Origin: a virus
Direction: 5' to 3' (one strand)
Virus record (IMG/VR): IMGVR_UViG_3300004369_000124
Span: 1 to 26,287 of that record
DNA: 26,287 nucleotides
Part shown: piece by piece, positions 6,491-22,195 of the stretch
Numbering within the stretch: the first letter of the stretch is position 1
How the letters are laid out: every line of letters starts with the position of its first letter
Program-made: the position numbers and the translations under genes
The notes under the pieces: model-generated
Seen by the model: only the letters and a program-made list of their open reading frames with translations
Told to the model about the DNA's origin: nothing
The model's database searches: none

Positions 6491-7675
6491 ATGACACAAG
6501 CACTATTAGAAAGCCGTTGGGGCGAAACAAAAGATGCCCTGTTAGAAGGTTTAAACGGCGCCAAGCGCAGTACAATGGGTGTTGTTCTAGAGAACACACG
6601 CAAGAGTTTGATGGAGACCGCTACCGCTGGTTCAACAGCCGCTGGTAACGTTGCTACATTGAACCGTGTAATTTTACCAGTCATTAGACGAGTAATGCCA
6701 ACCGTTATTGCTAACGAAATCGTTGGTGTTCAGCCTATGACAGGTCCAGTTGCACAGATTCACACACTACGTGTACGCTATGCTGATTCAGTTACATCAA
6801 CAGCAAGTGCACCATTTGATACAAGCGTTACTGCTGGTGATGAAGCACTTTCACCATTCAAGATTGCTACAGTATATTCAGGTAGTTCTTCTACCGGTCG
6901 TGCTGATTCAACAAGTACACTTGAAGGTAACCCAGGTAACAAGATCAACGTCCAGATCTTAAAGCAAGTTGTTGAAGCTAAGACACGTAAGCTATCAGCA
7001 CGTTGGACATTTGAAGCCGCTCAAGATGCGCAAGCAATGCACGGCTTGGATATTGAAGCAGAAGTTATGGCAGCTCTTGCACAAGAGATTACAGTTGAAA
7101 TTGACCAAGAAGTTCTTGGTTCACTTCGTAGTCTTGCTGGTACTGAGTTCACATATAACCAGGCAGCAGTATCTGGTACAGCTACTTACGTTGGTGATGA
7201 GCATGCCGCATTGGCAGTTCTTATCAACAGAACAGCTAACTTGATTGCATCACGCACACGTCGTGGCGCAGGTAACTGGGCAGTTGTTTCACCAGCCGCT
7301 TTAACAGTTCTCCAGAGCGCAACAACAAGTGCTTTTGCACGTACAACTGAAGGCACATTTGAAGCACCTACAAACACTAAGTTTGTTGGTACATTAAATG
7401 GTGCAATGAAAGTTTATGTAGACAGCTATGCTAGTGATACACAAGCAGTTCTAGTTGGTTACAAAGGTTCAAGCGAAGCAGATGCAGCCGCATTCTATTG
7501 CCCATATATTCCATTAATGAGCAGTGGTGTTGTGTTGGATCCATCAACACTTGAGCCAGTAGTTGGCTTTATGACTCGCTACGGATATGTAGAGCTCACG
7601 AATACTGCATCATCGTTCGGTAATGCAGCCGATTACTTGGGTGAGATTGCAGTTTCGAATCTTTCATTCCAGTAA
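6491..7675 (+). CDS. gp23: Major capsid protein (T4 gp23 family), compact form
   Basis: Forms the hexamers of the head shell (HK97-type fold). Family landmarks: an N-terminal ALLESRW...LLEGL start, the NVATLNRVILPVIRRVMPTV block, GVQPMTGPVAQIHTLRVRY, SARWTFEAAQDAQAMHGLDI, and a C-terminal MTRYGYVE block. At 394 aa it is much shorter than T4 gp23 (521 aa), consistent with loss or reduction of the insertion domain and peripheral loops. A probable gp21 cleavage site is Leu-Met-Glu42 before TATAGS, removing a 42-residue propeptide (T4 removes 65). Two purine-rich AAGGAA-type ribosome sites (6474-6486) precede the ATG, fitting very high expression, and a strong terminator follows. I see no perfect late octamer right before it. 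Confidence 0.95.
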   Translation: MTQALLESRWGETKDALLEGLNGAKRSTMGVVLENTRKSLMETATAGSTAAGNVATLNRVILPVIRRVMPTVIANEIVGVQPMTGPVAQIHTLRVRYADSVTSTASAPFDTSVTAGDEALSPFKIATVYSGSSSTGRADSTSTLEGNPGNKINVQILKQVVEAKTRKLSARWTFEAAQDAQAMHGLDIEAEVMAALAQEITVEIDQEVLGSLRSLAGTEFTYNQAAVSGTATYVGDEHAALAVLINRTANLIASRTRRGAGNWAVVSPAALTVLQSATTSAFARTTEGTFEAPTNTKFVGTLNGAMKVYVDSYASDTQAVLVGYKGSSEADAAAFYCPYIPLMSSGVVLDPSTLEPVVGFMTRYGYVELTNTASSFGNAADYLGEIAVSNLSFQ

Positions 7676-7780: not shown

Positions 7781-8059
7781 ATGGAAACTATCGTAATGGC
7801 AATTTTAGTCACTGTGTTAACAGCAGACGGGACACCGTCAACGGGTTATCACCAACATGGTCCAGAGTTTTACAACCTAGGTGCATGTCAACGCATAATT
7901 GGCGACAGGGATCTTCTTCCTGAAATATACGAAGATGTGCGCAGACATATAGGCTCACGTTTGGTTAAAACTAGAGAGATTGGATGCTTTACTGCAGAGT
8001 CTCTTAAAGATACTAACGACTTGCTTAATTATGATTCAACACCTTTTCTATCATTATAA
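7781..8059 (+). CDS. Small protein of unknown function (92 aa)
   Basis: A 92-aa product lying alone between the capsid terminator and the riboswitch unit. Not recognised. Visible features: a short hydrophobic start (METIVMAILVTVLTADGTPS), a middle GPEFYNLGACQRIIGDRDLL, and VRRHIGSRLVKTREIGCFTA, giving two cysteines (Cys36 and Cys69) that could pair if the protein leaves the cytoplasm. The hydrophobic segment is too short to call a signal peptide. There is no Shine-Dalgarno before the ATG at 7781; the second ATG at 7796 (Met6) has GGAA 10 bases upstream and is a credible alternative start. TATAAT at 7777-7782 overlaps the first ATG, and if it were a -10 box the Met6 start would be the one used. 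Codon use resembles its neighbours. Confidence 0.7.
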   Translation: METIVMAILVTVLTADGTPSTGYHQHGPEFYNLGACQRIIGDRDLLPEIYEDVRRHIGSRLVKTREIGCFTAESLKDTNDLLNYDSTPFLSL

Positions 8060-8070
8060 AACAAAATAAC

Positions 8071-8101
8071 TTGACTTAATATGCTAGTTACTGTATAAAT
8101 A
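8071..8101 (+). promoter_or_regulatory. Superimposed sigma70-like and T4-late promoter for the riboswitch unit
   Basis: TTGACT (8071-8076), a 17-base spacer and TATAAA (8094-8099) make a near-consensus host-type promoter. The same -10 region is a perfect late octamer, TATAAATA (8094-8101). Both readings predict a start near 8107, one base before the first aptamer, so the RNA would begin at the P1 helix. It could therefore be read early by host sigma factor and late by the phage-modified polymerase. Confidence 0.75.
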
Positions 8102-8107
8102 TATATA

Positions 8108-8152
8108 CGTTCAGCTGAGAGGCCGGAAGTAGACTACCCAGTCGAAGGAACG
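8108..8152 (+). promoter_or_regulatory. Glutamine riboswitch aptamer 1 (glnA-type RNA)
   Basis: Matches the conserved glnA / Downstream-peptide glutamine aptamer: CGTTCA at the start, CGGAAGTAG in the middle, CGAAGGAACGC at the end. Helices readable in the sequence: P1 CGTTC (8108-8112) with GAACG (8148-8152); P2 GCT-GAGA-GGC with a GNRA loop and one G-U pair; P3 GACT-ACCC-AGTC. This copy has a weaker P2 than copy 2. Established knowledge: this RNA class binds L-glutamine and is found in cyanobacteria, marine phages and marine metagenomes. Confidence 0.9.
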
Positions 8153-8161
8153 CATTATCAT

Positions 8162-8209
8162 CGTTCATCTCGAAAGAGACGGAAGTAGGTAATGGTTACC
8201 GAAGGAACG
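8162..8209 (+). promoter_or_regulatory. Glutamine riboswitch aptamer 2 (glnA-type RNA)
   Basis: Second copy nine bases after the first. P1 CGTTC (8162-8166) with GAACG (8205-8209); P2 TCTC-GAAA-GAGA; the conserved ACGGAAGTAG core; P3 GGTAA-TGG-TTACC; then CGAAGGAACGC. The three helices form perfectly and the unpaired core is identical to the class consensus. Tandem copies are known for glnA RNAs and usually sharpen the response to ligand. Confidence 0.94.
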
Positions 8210-8233
8210 CACCTAACTGTGAAAAGGAGGGTG
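8210..8233 (+). promoter_or_regulatory. Expression platform: strong Shine-Dalgarno with a possible sequestering stem
   Basis: AAGGAGG (8224-8230) lies eight bases before the short ORF's ATG and is the strongest ribosome site in the window. CACCT (8210-8214), immediately after aptamer 2, can pair with GGGTG (8229-8233), covering the end of the Shine-Dalgarno with four canonical pairs and one G-U pair. Ligand-dependent stacking on P1 could shift this pairing. This is an inferred mechanism. Confidence 0.45.
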
Positions 8234-8238
8234 TTATT

Positions 8239-8346
8239 ATGACAATGTGGACTCGCTATTGTAGAGAGCAAGCACAGAAAGACTATCACAAGTCTCAAAT
8301 GCTTAAAATCTTGTTGTTACGTGCAATACACGAAACAGACAAGTGA
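8239..8346 (+). CDS. 35-aa riboswitch-controlled peptide
   Basis: A short ORF from ATG 8239 to TGA 8344-8346. It begins MTMWTRYCREQAQKDYHKSQ and continues MLKILLLRAIHETDK. It is basic (Arg6, Arg9, Lys14, Lys18, Lys23, Arg28, Lys35) and looks like a single amphipathic helix with a Leu/Ile-rich second half. It has one cysteine. It is preceded by a perfect AAGGAGG and followed within six bases by a terminator, so it is the only thing this RNA encodes. Short ORFs after this aptamer are the defining context of the 'Downstream-peptide' RNAs. In cyanobacteria, glutamine riboswitches control small basic glutamine synthetase inactivating factors. A similar role here is a hypothesis from context and charge, not from recognised sequence identity. 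Confidence 0.85.
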   Translation: MTMWTRYCREQAQKDYHKSQMLKILLLRAIHETDK

Positions 8347-8351
8347 ACTTC

Positions 8352-8375
8352 AAGGGGCTGAAACGCCCCTTTTTT
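8352..8375 (+). terminator. Intrinsic terminator of the riboswitch-peptide unit
   Basis: AAGGGGC (8352-8358), a six-base loop and GCCCCTT (8365-8371), with six T at 8370-8375. It closes a transcription unit of about 270 bases that begins near 8107. Confidence 0.93.
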
Positions 8376-8389
8376 GTGACTAACATTTC

Positions 8390-8397
8390 TATAAATA
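8390..8397 (+). promoter_or_regulatory. T4-type late promoter (perfect TATAAATA)
   Basis: Perfect octamer 15 bases after the peptide-unit terminator. The predicted start near 8403 gives a leader of about 70 bases for the 162-aa gene. Confidence 0.72.
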
Positions 8398-15541: not shown

Positions 15542-18500
15542 ATGGCCGTTACTCGTATTAAAAATAATCAGATTACTGATAGCACTATCACCGGTGCCAA
15601 GGTTGCAAACGCAACACTAACAGGCGGATTATTTGCATCAGCACTCACACTAAACTCTAACGTAAGTATTGTAGGTAACTTATCTGTTACAGGAACCACA
15701 TCAACAGTTAGCAGTACAAACACATTTATTAATGATCCGTTGATTGTTTACAACAATGGCTATACGGGTGATTTATCAAACTACAGCATTGGTATGCTGG
15801 TAAACAGAAACCTTGCGTCACTTGCCGACTATGGCAGTGTTAACGTAGCCTGGGCCTGGGATGAAGCCGAAGGTGCTTTTGTTGCAATTGCAACAACTGA
15901 CACTGGTTCAGGTATCACAAGTATTAACAACAGTGGCTACGGAAATGTTAAATTAGGTAATGCAGAAATTGTATCCAAATTAACGGCCGGATCATTAGTT
16001 GCAACCACATTCGAAGCAACCAACTTATCCGCTACTACGCTTGTAGCAACAAACTTTAGTTCAGGTAACGCTCAAATCTCAGGTGGATATGCAGATGGAT
16101 TTACAATTGGTGGCAACACAGCCGCAACTGGAACATTTACTACTACCAATCACGACGAAGTTGTAGCAACGTCTGGTAATGCCGCAACATGGTATGCAAC
16201 CACACTAAACAGTACAGCAGGTAACATCACAACACTTACTGCTCCTACTGTTGATGCACAAACAACCACAACTACAACATTAAATGCCACAACTGGTAAT
16301 ATTACTACTGCAACAGCAGGTAGTATGGCAGTCAGCGATTTAACAAACAACAGAGTTGTTATTGCTGGTACAAGTGGCGAACTTGAAGATGATGCAAACT
16401 TTACATGGGATGGTACAGATCTAAACCTTACTGGTGGATTAAACGTAACTGGCGACTTAGCAGTTGATAACATTGCAGTTAACGGCAACGCTATTACGTC
16501 AACAGACACAGACGGAGACATAACACTAACACCAAATGGTACTGGTGAAGTTGTTATAAGTGCAGGGTTAGCAACAACTCTTAATGCCGCAACTGCTACT
16601 GCTGTTACATTAAACAGTACAGCTGGTAACATCACAACACTTACTAGCCCAACAGTTGATGCACAAACAACTACAACTACTACACTTAATGCTACAACTG
16701 GTAATGTTACAACTATTAGTGGTACAACAGCAACATACACAAATGTTAATGCTGGTACAACCACAAGTGCTACCATAAATGCTACAGCAGGTAATGTTAC
16801 AACACTTACAGCACCTACTATTAACGCAGGTACAACCACAAGTGCTACCATAAATGCTACAGCAGGCAATGTTACAACACTAGGTGCTACAAACTTTAGC
16901 AGTGGCAACTTACAAGTAACAGGTGGATTTGTTGACAATGTACATGTTGGTGCCAATGTAGCCGCAACTGGTAACTTTACAACACTTGATGCAGAATCAT
17001 TGGATGTTGATAACATCACAATTAACGGCAACGACATTACGTCAACTGACACCAATGGCGATATTAACATCACACCAGACGGAACAGGTAGTGTAGTCAT
17101 TGATGGATTAAACTATCCACAAGCAGATGGTTCAGCTAACCAAGTAATACAAACAGATGGTAGTGGTCAACTAAGTTTTGCTACTGTATTGACTGATATC
17201 GTTGCAGACACAACACCTCAGTTAGGTGGCGACTTAGATGTAAATGGACAATCAATTGTATCTGTATCAAACGGTGATATTAATATTACGCCAAATGGTA
17301 CAGGTGATGTTGTTGTTAGTACTATCGAAGTTAGTGATTTAACTGACAACAGAGTTGTTATTGCTGGCACAGCAGGTGCACTTGAAGATGACGCTAACCT
17401 AACCTATAATGGTACAACACTAGCCACAAATGGCCTCAGTGCTACTACTGCTGACATTAACGGTGGTACTATTGATGGAACTACAATTGGTGGAGCAAGT
17501 GCTGCCGCAGGTACATTTACTGATTTGTCAGCAACCAATGCTGCCTTAACAGGTGGTTATGTTGATAATGTACATGTTGGCGCAAACACAGCCGCTACAG
17601 GTTCGTTTACTACACTAGAAGCAAGTGGCACTTCAACTCTTGCACAAGTAGATGCAACTATACTAAACGGTGCAACACTAAATGTCACAAATGGTAACGT
17701 AACTACACTTACTGCTCCTACAATTAATGCAGGTACAACCACAAGTGCTACAGTTAATGCTACAACTGGCAATGTTACAACATTAACTGCTACAAATGTA
17801 ATCAATACTACATTGGTTGCTACTAACTTCAGCAGTTCTAACGTTGATATTAATGGTGGCGCAGTTGATGGAGCCACAATTGGTGCCGCAAGCGCAAGTA
17901 CTGGTGCATTTACAACACTAAGTGCAAGTGGTAACACAACAGTAACAAGTTCACAAAGCAGTGGCAATGCAAGTTCGGGTGCTTTGGTTGTTACAGGTGG
18001 TGCTGGTATTGGTGAAAACTTAAACGTTGGTGGTGATGTTGTTATCACTGGTGACTTAACAGTTGAAGGTGACACAACAACTATTAACACAGCAACACTT
18101 AATGTTGAAGATTTGAACATTACTATTGCTGACGGTGCCGCAGATGCCGGATCTGCTAACGGTGCTGGTATTACAGTTGACGGTGCCAACGCAACCATTA
18201 CATACGCAAGTGCAGATGATAGTTGGAACTTTAACAAACTATTGAAAGCAACAGATGGTTCTATCACAACACTAACATCTACAAATGTAATCAACACAAC
18301 ATTGGTTGCTACAAACTTTAGTAGTGGTAACGTACAAGCAACAGGTGGTTATGTTGATAACGTACACGTTGGTGCGAATGTAGCCGCTACAGGTGCATTT
18401 ACTACACTAGAAGCAAGTGGTACAAGCACACTAGCTGGTGTAGATGCTACATCAGTAACAAGTGCTACAGTCAATGCTACATCAGGTAACGTAACTACAC

Positions 18501-21500
18501 TTACTGCTCCTACAATTAATGCAGGTACAACCACAAGTGCTACAGTTAATGCTACAACTGGTAATATTACTACTGCAACAGCAGGTAGTTTGGCAGTTAG
18601 TGACTTAACTGATAACAGAGTTGTTATTGCTGGTACAAGTGGTGAACTTGAGGATGATGCTAACTTTACATTCAATGGTACAATATTGGCATTGACAGCC
18701 GCTATGGATATCACAGGCGACTTAGATGTAGATAACATCAACATCAATGGCAACGACGTTACATCAACTGACACCAATGGCGATATTAACATCACACCAG
18801 ATGGAACAGGTAGTGTGGTCATTGACGGGTTGAGTCATCCGCAAGCAGATGGTACATCCGGACAAGCACTTGTTACAGACGGAAGTGCGCAGTTAAGTTT
18901 TGCTACTGTGTTAACTGATCTTGTACAAGACACAACACCTCAACTAGGTGGTGATTTAGATGTAAATGGCAATCAAATTGTTAGTGTATCAAATGGCAAT
19001 ATTGCACTTACTCCTAACGGTACAGGTGAAGTTATTGCAAGCACACTAGCAGTAAGCGATTTAACAAACGATAGAGTTGTTTTTGCAGGTGTAAACGGTG
19101 CATTAGAAGACAGTACCAATCTTACATACGATGGTACAAACTTAACTACAAATGGTTTAGTTGCTACCACTGCTGACATTAACGGCGGTACAATTGACGG
19201 CACTAACATTGGTGTTTCATCACAAGGCTCTGGTGCATTTACAACACTAAGTGCAAGTGGTACTTCAACCGTAGCACAAGTAGATGCTACTGTATTGAAT
19301 AGTGCTTCACTTAACACCACAGCTGGTAATATCACAACACTTACTAGCCCAACAGTTGACGCACAAACAACCACAACTACTACACTAAATGCAACAGCTG
19401 GTAATATCACAACACTTACTAGCCCAACAGTTGATGCAATTACCACAACAAGTACAACTGTTAATGCTACAACAGGTAATGTTACTACACTAACAGCAAC
19501 TGATGTTATCAACACAACACTAGTTGCTACAAACTTTAGTAGTAGTAATGTTGACGTTAATGGTGGTGCAATTGACGGAACACCAATTGGTGCCGCAAGT
19601 GCAAGCACAGGTGCATTTACAACACTAAGTGCTTCGGGTACTTCAACTGTAGCACAGGTAGATGCAACAATACTTAATGGCGCCACAGTTAATGCAACTG
19701 CTGGTAACATTACAACGTTGACATCACCAACAGTTGATGCACAAACTACTACAAGTACTACACTTAATGCTACAACAGGTAACGTTACAACATTAACTGC
19801 TCCTACTATCAACGGTGGTACTACTACAACTGCTACGTTAAACAGCACAAGTGGTAATATTACTACATTGGATAGCACAACTGTTAATGCCATAACAGGT
19901 ACAATCACCACAGTTAATACAACAACTGCAAACGTTCATACTGGTGTTATTGACAACTTGTCAAGTGCGAATGTAATGCTTACAGGTGGTGATATTGACG
20001 GTGTTAATATTGGTGCTTCAACAGCAGGCACTGGTGCGTTCACAACACTTGCCGCAAGCGGTGTTTCAACACTAGCAGGCAACATTGTTGGTACAAGTGG
20101 TACAGCAAGCACAAGCGATATTACTGGTGCATTGGTACTTACAGGTACAGGCGGTGCTGGCATTGGCGGCAATATTAATGTTGGTGGCGGTGCGCTACTT
20201 AACATTGATCAAACTGCCAACTACGACGTTAAGGTTAGTGGCGCAAATGATACATCATTGCTTTGGGCACGTGCCGCAAATGGTTACGATCAAGTATTAA
20301 TTGGTAACAGTGCTGTAGTAAGCAATTTGGTTAATGGTGCTAAACTTCAAATTAACACCACAGACAGTATATTACTACCAGTTGGTACAACAGCACAGCG
20401 TCCAGGTAGTGTTGGCGGAACTGACACAACTGGTATGTTGCGTTATAACTCCAGTATTGACAACCTTGAGTTCTACGATGGCTCAGAGTGGAACACAGCT
20501 GGTACAACGTTTACTGTTATTGCAAGTGAAACATTTAATGGTGATGATTCAACAACAGGCTTTACACTAAGCGAAGCACAAACAACTGCAAGTTGTATTG
20601 TTAGTATCAACGGTGTTGTTCAGCTACCAACCACAGCATACAGTGTCAGCAGTACAACACTTACATTTACTGAAGCTCCAGCAACTGGTGATAAGATTGA
20701 AGTTAGAAAACTAACAACAACACAAACAGTATCAGGACTTTCAAGTGCAAACAGTTATGTACAAGTTGAAGCAGCCGATGATGGTGTTAAGTTCTACGCA
20801 GGCACAAGTGCCGCAACACTACGTTGGACAATTGACACAGACGGTCACTTAGTACCGGCAGCCAATTCTACACAGAACATTGGTAGCTCAAGTGCTAGAC
20901 TTGGTACGTTATATGTAACTGATCTTGTAACAGGTAACCAAGGTGATTTACGCTTTAACGACGCTGACAGTAGCAACTTCGTTGCTTTCCAGGCTCCTGC
21001 TACAGTAGGTTCAAACATTACTTGGACACTACCAGATGCAGACGCTAGTGTAAGTGGTTATGCTCTTGTTAGTGATGCGTCAGGCACACTAAGTTGGGCG
21101 GCAGCTGGTGCAACTATTAGTCAAGACGAATCAACAAATACAAACTTTAACTTGTATTTTGCTACAACTACTAGCGGTGCACTAACATCAGTCAATTACG
21201 ATTCAGGTGTACATTACAATCCAAGTACAGGCACACTAACATCAGCCGCATTTGCTGGTAATGTTACTGGTGATGTAACTGGTCAACTTACAGCACAAAA
21301 CATTCAAGTTGGTGTTACAGGTACTAATGAAATTGACACAACAAGTGGCGGTTTAACTCTTGATTCAGCAAGCGGCACAGTTACAGTTGATGACAACTTG
21401 ATTGTTAGCGGTGACTTTACTGTAAACGGTACTACAACAACAATCAATTCAACAACTTTAACAGTTGATGATAAAAACATTGTTCTTGCTTCAGGTGCCG

Positions 21501-22195
21501 CAGATGCTGCAACTGCTAACGGTGCTGGTATTACAGTTGATGGTGCAAGTGCTACACTTACTTACGCTAATACAGGTGACAAGTGGGTATTTAACAAAGC
21601 AACTGATGTTTCATCATTGTTGATCAATGGTACTGCTGTTACTTCGACAGCCGCAGAACTTAACTACGTGGCTGGGGTCACGTCAGCCATACAAACACAG
21701 TTAGATACGAAAGCACCATTAGCAAGTCCAACATTTACTGGCACAGTAAGTGGCGCTACAGCTTCATTTAGTGCTAACGTAACTGCAAGCTACTTCATAG
21801 GTACAGCAACAGAATCATTGTATGCTGACTTGGCTGAGAACTATCAAGCAGATGCTAATTATTCAGCAGGTACAGTACTTGAGTTTGGTGGCGCAGAAGA
21901 AGTAACAACTGCTACTGAAAATTCAAGACGTGTAGCAGGTATTGTTTCAACTGATCCAGCTCACTTGATGAACGGCGGACTAAAAGGTTCTAACGTGGTA
22001 CCATTGGCACTTATGGGTCGTGTTCCATGTTTAGCAATTGGTCCAGTAGTCAAAGGTGACATGATGGTATCAGCAGGATTTGGTTATGCGAAAGCAGACG
22101 CTAATCCAGCAACAGGTACTGTGATTGGTAAAGCACTAGAAGCACTAGCAGACGGTGAAAAAGCAACAATTGAAGTAGTTGTAGGTAAAGTATAA
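15542..22195 (+). CDS. Giant repeat-built tail fibre (2217 aa) with C-terminal YADLAENY domain
   Basis: AGGAA (15531-15535) sets the start. The N-terminus has MAVTRIKNNQITDSTITGAK and an 'NTFINDPLIVYNNGYTG' module shared with the protein encoded at 22288. Residues ~223-1460 are a shaft of Thr/Asn/Ala-rich repeats: about 16 copies of an N-x-T-x-G-N-[VI]-T-T motif, often in exact 25-residue periods, mixed with about nine 'DG--IGA--A-TGAFTTL-ASGTST' units. Residues ~1655-1725 hold the 'INGVVQLPTTAYSV' module. The last ~140 residues, from YADLAENYQAD at 2094, form a compact domain with 'RRVAGIVSTDPAHLMN' and 'GRVPCLAIGPVVKGDMMVSA'. This resembles the C-terminal assembly/autocleavage (Peptidase_G2-like) domains of other phage appendages; that relation is an inference. 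Very likely a long host-recognition fibre. Flanked by a late promoter and a strong terminator, so probably a single-gene unit. Confidence 0.9.
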   Translation: MAVTRIKNNQITDSTITGAKVANATLTGGLFASALTLNSNVSIVGNLSVTGTTSTVSSTNTFINDPLIVYNNGYTGDLSNYSIGMLVNRNLASLADYGSVNVAWAWDEAEGAFVAIATTDTGSGITSINNSGYGNVKLGNAEIVSKLTAGSLVATTFEATNLSATTLVATNFSSGNAQISGGYADGFTIGGNTAATGTFTTTNHDEVVATSGNAATWYATTLNSTAGNITTLTAPTVDAQTTTTTTLNATTGNITTATAGSMAVSDLTNNRVVIAGTSGELEDDANFTWDGTDLNLTGGLNVTGDLAVDNIAVNGNAITSTDTDGDITLTPNGTGEVVISAGLATTLNAATATAVTLNSTAGNITTLTSPTVDAQTTTTTTLNATTGNVTTISGTTATYTNVNAGTTTSATINATAGNVTTLTAPTINAGTTTSATINATAGNVTTLGATNFSSGNLQVTGGFVDNVHVGANVAATGNFTTLDAESLDVDNITINGNDITSTDTNGDINITPDGTGSVVIDGLNYPQADGSANQVIQTDGSGQLSFATVLTDIVADTTPQLGGDLDVNGQSIVSVSNGDINITPNGTGDVVVSTIEVSDLTDNRVVIAGTAGALEDDANLTYNGTTLATNGLSATTADINGGTIDGTTIGGASAAAGTFTDLSATNAALTGGYVDNVHVGANTAATGSFTTLEASGTSTLAQVDATILNGATLNVTNGNVTTLTAPTINAGTTTSATVNATTGNVTTLTATNVINTTLVATNFSSSNVDINGGAVDGATIGAASASTGAFTTLSASGNTTVTSSQSSGNASSGALVVTGGAGIGENLNVGGDVVITGDLTVEGDTTTINTATLNVEDLNITIADGAADAGSANGAGITVDGANATITYASADDSWNFNKLLKATDGSITTLTSTNVINTTLVATNFSSGNVQATGGYVDNVHVGANVAATGAFTTLEASGTSTLAGVDATSVTSATVNATSGNVTTLTAPTINAGTTTSATVNATTGNITTATAGSLAVSDLTDNRVVIAGTSGELEDDANFTFNGTILALTAAMDITGDLDVDNININGNDVTSTDTNGDINITPDGTGSVVIDGLSHPQADGTSGQALVTDGSAQLSFATVLTDLVQDTTPQLGGDLDVNGNQIVSVSNGNIALTPNGTGEVIASTLAVSDLTNDRVVFAGVNGALEDSTNLTYDGTNLTTNGLVATTADINGGTIDGTNIGVSSQGSGAFTTLSASGTSTVAQVDATVLNSASLNTTAGNITTLTSPTVDAQTTTTTTLNATAGNITTLTSPTVDAITTTSTTVNATTGNVTTLTATDVINTTLVATNFSSSNVDVNGGAIDGTPIGAASASTGAFTTLSASGTSTVAQVDATILNGATVNATAGNITTLTSPTVDAQTTTSTTLNATTGNVTTLTAPTINGGTTTTATLNSTSGNITTLDSTTVNAITGTITTVNTTTANVHTGVIDNLSSANVMLTGGDIDGVNIGASTAGTGAFTTLAASGVSTLAGNIVGTSGTASTSDITGALVLTGTGGAGIGGNINVGGGALLNIDQTANYDVKVSGANDTSLLWARAANGYDQVLIGNSAVVSNLVNGAKLQINTTDSILLPVGTTAQRPGSVGGTDTTGMLRYNSSIDNLEFYDGSEWNTAGTTFTVIASETFNGDDSTTGFTLSEAQTTASCIVSINGVVQLPTTAYSVSSTTLTFTEAPATGDKIEVRKLTTTQTVSGLSSANSYVQVEAADDGVKFYAGTSAATLRWTIDTDGHLVPAANSTQNIGSSSARLGTLYVTDLVTGNQGDLRFNDADSSNFVAFQAPATVGSNITWTLPDADASVSGYALVSDASGTLSWAAAGATISQDESTNTNFNLYFATTTSGALTSVNYDSGVHYNPSTGTLTSAAFAGNVTGDVTGQLTAQNIQVGVTGTNEIDTTSGGLTLDSASGTVTVDDNLIVSGDFTVNGTTTTINSTTLTVDDKNIVLASGAADAATANGAGITVDGASATLTYANTGDKWVFNKATDVSSLLINGTAVTSTAAELNYVAGVTSAIQTQLDTKAPLASPTFTGTVSGATASFSANVTASYFIGTATESLYADLAENYQADANYSAGTVLEFGGAEEVTTATENSRRVAGIVSTDPAHLMNGGLKGSNVVPLALMGRVPCLAIGPVVKGDMMVSAGFGYAKADANPATGTVIGKALEALADGEKATIEVVVGKV
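17031..17490 (+). repeat. Duplicated block, copy A (about 460 bases, in coding sequence)
   Basis: Aligns without gaps to 18753-19212 at a constant offset of 1722 bases (574 codons). Encodes 'NGDINITPDGTGSVVIDGL', 'DTTPQLGGDLDVNG', 'GALEDDANLTYNGT' and 'ADINGGTIDGT'. Most differences that I can see are at third codon positions. Confidence 0.8.
18753..19212 (+). repeat. Duplicated block, copy B (about 460 bases, in coding sequence)
   Basis: Partner of 17031-17490. The first 80 bases differ by only a few transitions, such as the C/T in CCAGA(C/T)GG; the divergence is larger in the second half. Confidence 0.8.

Follow-up and report, generated by a model that had tools for sequence, protein, structure and literature searches.

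A tandem glutamine riboswitch behind a phage capsid gene heads a 35-amino-acid peptide unit also found in marine Burkholderiales

Why would two glutamine-sensing RNA elements stand side by side in the virion gene region of a phage, and what do they control? We addressed this question in the 26,287 bases of a complete IMG/VR record (the window). Our favored answer, to which we assign a probability of about 0.6, is that the two aptamers form a serially gated glutamine-ON switch in a late phage cassette, that the cassette encodes a 35-aa regulatory peptide and is shared horizontally with marine Burkholderiales as likely hosts, and that its product damps nitrogen assimilation. The underlying RNA family (RF01739) is already known, as are tandem copies and occurrences in marine phages: tandem glutamine riboswitches have been reported (PMC2864571), with 157 doublets and 4 triplets in one survey (PMC9481103), and the OM43 phage Melnitz carries a glutamine riboswitch (PMC9004378).

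A cmscan of the window against all of Rfam returned two matches only, both to RF01739 on the plus strand and both above the gathering score of 35 bits (Table 1), and a repeat search recovered the same two aptamers. This confirms the two complete glnA-type aptamers claimed in an earlier sequence-only reading of this DNA. That reading had also raised the Downstream-peptide family, for which (RF01704, type 2) the whole window gave no match at gathering. Both copies contain P1, P2 and P3 helices together with the cores CGGAAGUAG and CGAAGGAACGC, and both cores are invariant across 64 tandem RNAs. P1 reads CGTTC/GAACG in each aptamer (8108-8112/8148-8152 in the first, 8162-8166/8205-8209 in the second), such that the span first described, 8108-8209, runs exactly from P1 to P1, and the nine-base gap, at 8153-8161, had been given correctly. 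P2 and P3 differ in sequence between the copies with pairing retained, again as reported. On their sequence, these RNAs would be expected to bind glutamine.

The aptamers are part of a self-contained unit located after the capsid gene of a T4-like jumbo phage, which comprises a promoter, the tandem aptamers, a Shine-Dalgarno hairpin, an ORF and a terminator. The sequence-only reading had overlooked the promoter just upstream, the 35-aa ORF with its strong Shine-Dalgarno and the terminator. Portal, head protease and major head protein genes (PHROG matches) precede the cassette, and virion and tail-fibre proteins follow it. The virion-region setting described earlier is therefore right as to location, with capsid upstream and fibres downstream, but the RNA is not attached to the virion genes, as it heads its own 35-aa peptide unit. 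The nearest capsid proteins are those of the jumbo phages Phosso of Sinorhizobium (70% identity) and PA5oct of Pseudomonas (67%), in agreement with the initial view of a diverged T4-like phage. A reading in which the riboswitch is mainly a 3' UTR of the capsid mRNA was rejected because the promoter lies directly upstream and, in several relatives, the riboswitch is preceded by a hairpin that resembles a terminator and carries a T run. Family-A phage loci at the capsid site retain the promoter hexamers while the spacer diverges, and a second TATAAATA at 8390-8397 lies ahead of the next gene in the window. Between the capsid gene and the cassette, a 92-aa ORF (7781-8059) without a PHROG match is found in only some close relatives (cluster c17); the largest ORF of the window, 2217 aa (15542-22195), lies in the tail-fibre region.

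Table 1. Features of the cassette and its upstream neighbor (window coordinates)
Feature	Position	Strand	Details and evidence
Major capsid protein gene, upstream	6491-7675	+	phrog_138, E 9.5e-100
Promoter, hybrid	8071-8101	+	TTGACT (8071-8076), 17-nt spacer, TATAAATA (8094-8101); sigma70-like -35 plus T4-type late promoter box
Glutamine aptamer 1	8106-8156	+	RF01739, 47.0 bits, E 1.5e-7
Aptamer-1 tail CAUUAUC, proposed gate	8153-8159	+	7-bp complementarity to aptamer-2 P3 5' strand; swap control, covariation, folding
Glutamine aptamer 2	8160-8213	+	RF01739, 61.1 bits, E 2e-11
GGUAAUG, aptamer-2 P3 5' strand, proposed tail partner	8188-8194	+	swap control, covariation, folding
Expression platform, predicted	8210-8233	+	CACCU (8210-8214) pairs GGGUG (8229-8233), covering part of Shine-Dalgarno AAAAGGAGG (8222-8230)
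ORF, 35 aa, MTMWTRYCREQAQKDYHKSQMLKILLLRAIHETDK, W-x-x-Y-C micropeptide family	8239-8346	+	homologues, pN/pS
Intrinsic terminator, end of unit	8352-8371	+	same terminator after the cassette in host locus L138

The arm predicted to pair with the Shine-Dalgarno sequence starts at a conserved C right after P1 of aptamer 2. Across the four pairs of this helix in 64 distinct tandem RNAs, all cells were paired (256/256) and 46 had changed on both sides; the observed pairing was reached in 0 of 500 shuffles, and slid versions of the helix gave 15-57%. The compensatory sets were CG/UA/AU and CG/UA, and the arms that change together in relatives include CAUCU/AGAUG, CAAUC/GAUUG, CAUUUUC/GAGAAUG and CACUU/GAGUG. 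Pair probability in the free RNA is predicted to be 0.95. The covariation supports a hairpin that sequesters the Shine-Dalgarno sequence. In the glutamine aptamer, a G23-C60 pair forms only with glutamine bound (PMC11477058), and by its position C8210, the conserved C after P1, probably corresponds to C60. As the first base of the arm would then be drawn into pairing with G23 in the bound state, the ligand should open the Shine-Dalgarno site. Such an ON direction would be in line with the cyanobacterial relatives tested, in which glutamine activates expression (PMC6316151). The same review covers the RF01739 element in the 5' UTR of another small-protein gene, Synechocystis gifB; here, by contrast, there are two aptamers, in phages and Burkholderiales, and the 35-aa product is unrelated.

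We then consider what the first aptamer acts on. Tail-1:P3 complementarity is retained in relatives through changes on both sides (CAUUGUU/GGCAAUG, and CAUC with G replacing A). The mean length of the tail-1:P3 helix was 5.03, against 3.85 (sd 0.17) with partners swapped between loci, where 0 of 1000 swaps reached the observed value, and control tails gave means of 1.6-2.6. When the 64 tandem RNAs were aligned, 90.2% of cells were paired and 25 were double-changed (0/500 shuffles; slid versions 27-61%), although covariation counts are inflated by kinship, related sequences not being independent events. There is no one-to-one correspondence between the states of this helix and those of the Shine-Dalgarno arm, which points to several events. 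With ViennaRNA, the helix had a probability of 0.75-1.00 in 16 of 18 free RNAs and dropped when aptamer 1 was forced into its bound form; the CAUC class (L002, L011) scored 0.00 in the folding model. Part of the covariation could be a consequence of P3 itself. Taken together, covariation supports the tail-1:P3 helix more weakly than the Shine-Dalgarno helix, and we have moderate confidence that it may serve as a serial gate. A hairpin between the 3' strand of aptamer-1 P1 and the 5' strand of aptamer-2 P1, conceivable because the P1 strands are identical, had a probability of 0.001 and was dropped.

In the serially gated model, the aptamer-1 tail (8153-8159) would pair with the P3 strand (8188-8194) when glutamine is absent and block folding of aptamer 2, while the aptamer-2 tail (8210-8214) would pair with 8229-8233 and hide the Shine-Dalgarno sequence. 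Glutamine on aptamer 1 would free P3 of aptamer 2; glutamine on aptamer 2 would draw C8210 to the base of P1 and free the Shine-Dalgarno sequence, such that the peptide would be translated at high glutamine. Two sensors in series would therefore respond more steeply, which gives the steeper response suggested by the sequence-only reading a concrete, partly covariation-supported route.

The published tandems resemble this one in that a single gene follows two consecutive glnA aptamers (PMC9481103, PMC2864571), and they were classed as independent, or pseudo-cooperative (PMC9481103). The window could likewise hold two riboswitches that each act on expression without mutual contact, and the roughly one-fifth of distinct tandem pairs in which the tail-1:P3 helix is missing (CCGAA, CCACA and CACUGAA linkers, and L064/L091) would fit such independence. 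We nevertheless consider it unlikely: the aptamer-1 tail co-varies with aptamer-2 P3, and aptamer 1 has no expression platform of its own, since the 9 nt between the P1 helices, a linker similarly short as a rule in relatives, hold neither terminator nor ribosome site. Two aptamers with a single expression platform form the architecture of a cooperative tandem, in which ligand binding would be coupled, and covariation suggests a coupling helix. Cooperativity could also arise, on the model of the tandem glycine riboswitch, by direct tertiary contacts between the aptamers; these would then have one common platform, and the tail-1:P3 complementarity would be a by-product. Close packing, the single platform and the unusual conservation of the aptamer-2 loops between phage and host speak for such contacts, but we identified no candidate contact and linker length is variable, and we judge this arrangement quite improbable.

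A strict tandem pattern recovered 99 stretches in IMG/VR, almost all with a short ORF after the tandem; with the window included, 51 of the 100 loci have the tandem immediately downstream of the major capsid gene and in the same orientation, one small ORF intervening in 7 of the 51. The sequence-only reading had called the tandem unusual; these numbers and the published tandems (PMC2864571; PMC9481103) do not support that view, and the capsid-adjacent site to which that reading had drawn attention is recurrent. The phages with this site are T4-like and strongly diverged, their capsid proteins sharing as little as 31-35% identity. All 76 tandem phage loci that extend far enough upstream have TAAATA within the 40 nt before the tandem, against a background of 2.1% per 40-mer, and 45 of them have the full TATAAATA. 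Each of 31 phage records searched gave exactly two RF01739 matches, one pair per record, even at 221-289 kb. A cyanophage origin is not supported because the psbA/psbD family (PF00124) is absent from 31 phage records, which are fragments and include ones of 289, 228 and 221 kb. Further aptamer loci, nearly all single, lie behind a capsid gene in 25 of 106 cases among the matches listed. The short proteins behind the switches fall into several unrelated groups: W-x-x-Y-C (the window), NPFY-tailed, YRG/DUF4278 (PF14105), GTSGY, SRPR and WQL. Among annotated phages, searches by DNA and by peptide (three peptide families queried) returned no close relatives. Melnitz likewise has an RF01739-type element in a marine T4-like phage (PMC9004378); its element lies in the ssrA region, whereas that of the window stands at the head of a micropeptide unit downstream of the capsid gene.

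Homologues of the 35-aa peptide are encoded in 25 viral loci, mostly at the capsid site and also elsewhere (L067; L018, L039, L058, L073), and the cassette therefore appears to move as a unit. The pN/pS ratio, 0.42 among phage copies and 0.26 among host copies, supports the view that the ORF is coding and under purifying selection. In a wider set of 26 peptides, only Met1 and Cys8 are without exception. The window peptide gave no match worth naming in Pfam, NCBIfam, PHROG or PDB.

Scanning bacterial genomes with a peptide profile yielded five loci, all assigned to Betaproteobacteria/Burkholderiales or to a proteobacterium, and each of the five has a tandem RF01739 pair directly upstream of the peptide. 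Four of them (L125, L127, L128, L129) share all 54 nt of aptamer 2 with the window. L125 and L126 share syntenic chromosomal flanks (cytochrome c, dioxygenase, DUF429-like, oxidase-like and thioesterase-like genes, named by eye from translations). Genomes with a chromosomal copy carry exactly one RF01739 pair. We found the tandem-plus-peptide unit in 8 of 17 species genomes of one marine Burkholderiales family; an order-level sample added only already-found members of that family (7 of 349 genomes), and in a phylum-level sample of 398 genomes only the centre genome was positive. The cassette in L138 (genome G040) is 91-95% identical to that of the window in nucleotides and 91% in peptide; it shares TATAAATA and the terminator with the window, and its contig carries chromosomal genes resembling nadE, glnB and trxB. 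In the other chromosomal copies, the promoter is of the TTGACA type and TATAAATA is absent. From sequence comparison, this shows an exchange of the cassette between phage and host by horizontal transfer, and the TATAAATA in L138 hints at the direction phage to host. Because the cassette is common to the phage and to Burkholderiales chromosomes, and on that basis only, marine Burkholderiales are the likely hosts. A duplication in G040 (L138:1259-1604, minus strand) takes in the leader, the peptide and the 3' end of aptamer 2, such that a double peptide of 72 aa is encoded in a single frame.

What would such a peptide do? In cyanobacteria, the small proteins PirA and IF17 are made in nitrogen excess and brake nitrogen assimilation (PMC8092223, PMC6316151), and at other phage loci that we surveyed this type of riboswitch precedes DUF4278 peptides (PF14105). 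The window peptide itself has no detectable similarity to PirA or IF17, and searches of Pfam, NCBIfam and PHROG revealed none to nitrogen regulators including PirA/DUF4278 or to GS inactivating factors. By analogy, it probably damps host nitrogen assimilation as these proteins do. Alternatively, the peptide could act for the phage against its host, for example in late host takeover or in the timing of lysis, and glutamine would merely signal the state of the host. In favor of this role are the late-promoter-like box present at every measurable tandem phage locus, the capsid-adjacent site, the many unrelated micropeptides encoded at comparable sites and a related idea for Melnitz (PMC9004378), but a host chromosome carries a selected homologue controlled by the same switch and a housekeeping regulator therefore fits better; we hold the anti-host role to be somewhat unlikely. 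The full combination, in which P3 of aptamer 2 is the platform of aptamer 1, making a serial gate with cooperative sensing, and the peptide founds a new nitrogen-regulator micropeptide family exchanged by phages and marine Burkholderiales, is put forward tentatively, at less than even odds.

Beyond the literature surveyed, which was incomplete and leaves priority uncertain, are the chromosomal tandem unit outside cyanobacteria, the micropeptide without annotation, the repeated occurrence of the tandem at a late-promoter site next to the capsid gene and the link from the aptamer-1 tail to P3. A 2018 review described glutamine riboswitches as restricted to cyanobacteria (PMC6316151). This statement is contradicted by a chromosomal gene under a tandem switch in a marine Burkholderiales family and a near-identical phage unit, and RNA-based glutamine sensing is therefore not confined to cyanobacteria. 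The coupling of tandem riboswitches now becomes testable with exact bases given, as does the question of why phages put glutamine-gated micropeptides behind the capsid gene, where the demand for amino acids is greatest. Members of this unannotated micropeptide family are short enough to be synthesized. GTSGY, SRPR and WQL, likewise unannotated types, stand behind the mostly single riboswitches of IMG/VR loci L146-L251, about a quarter of them capsid-adjacent among the matches listed. Peptides at L005, L009, L047, L062 and L099 join NPFY-type ends (MTKYQ...ITDNPFYP) to the YRG motif typical of DUF4278, as if the two types were fused.
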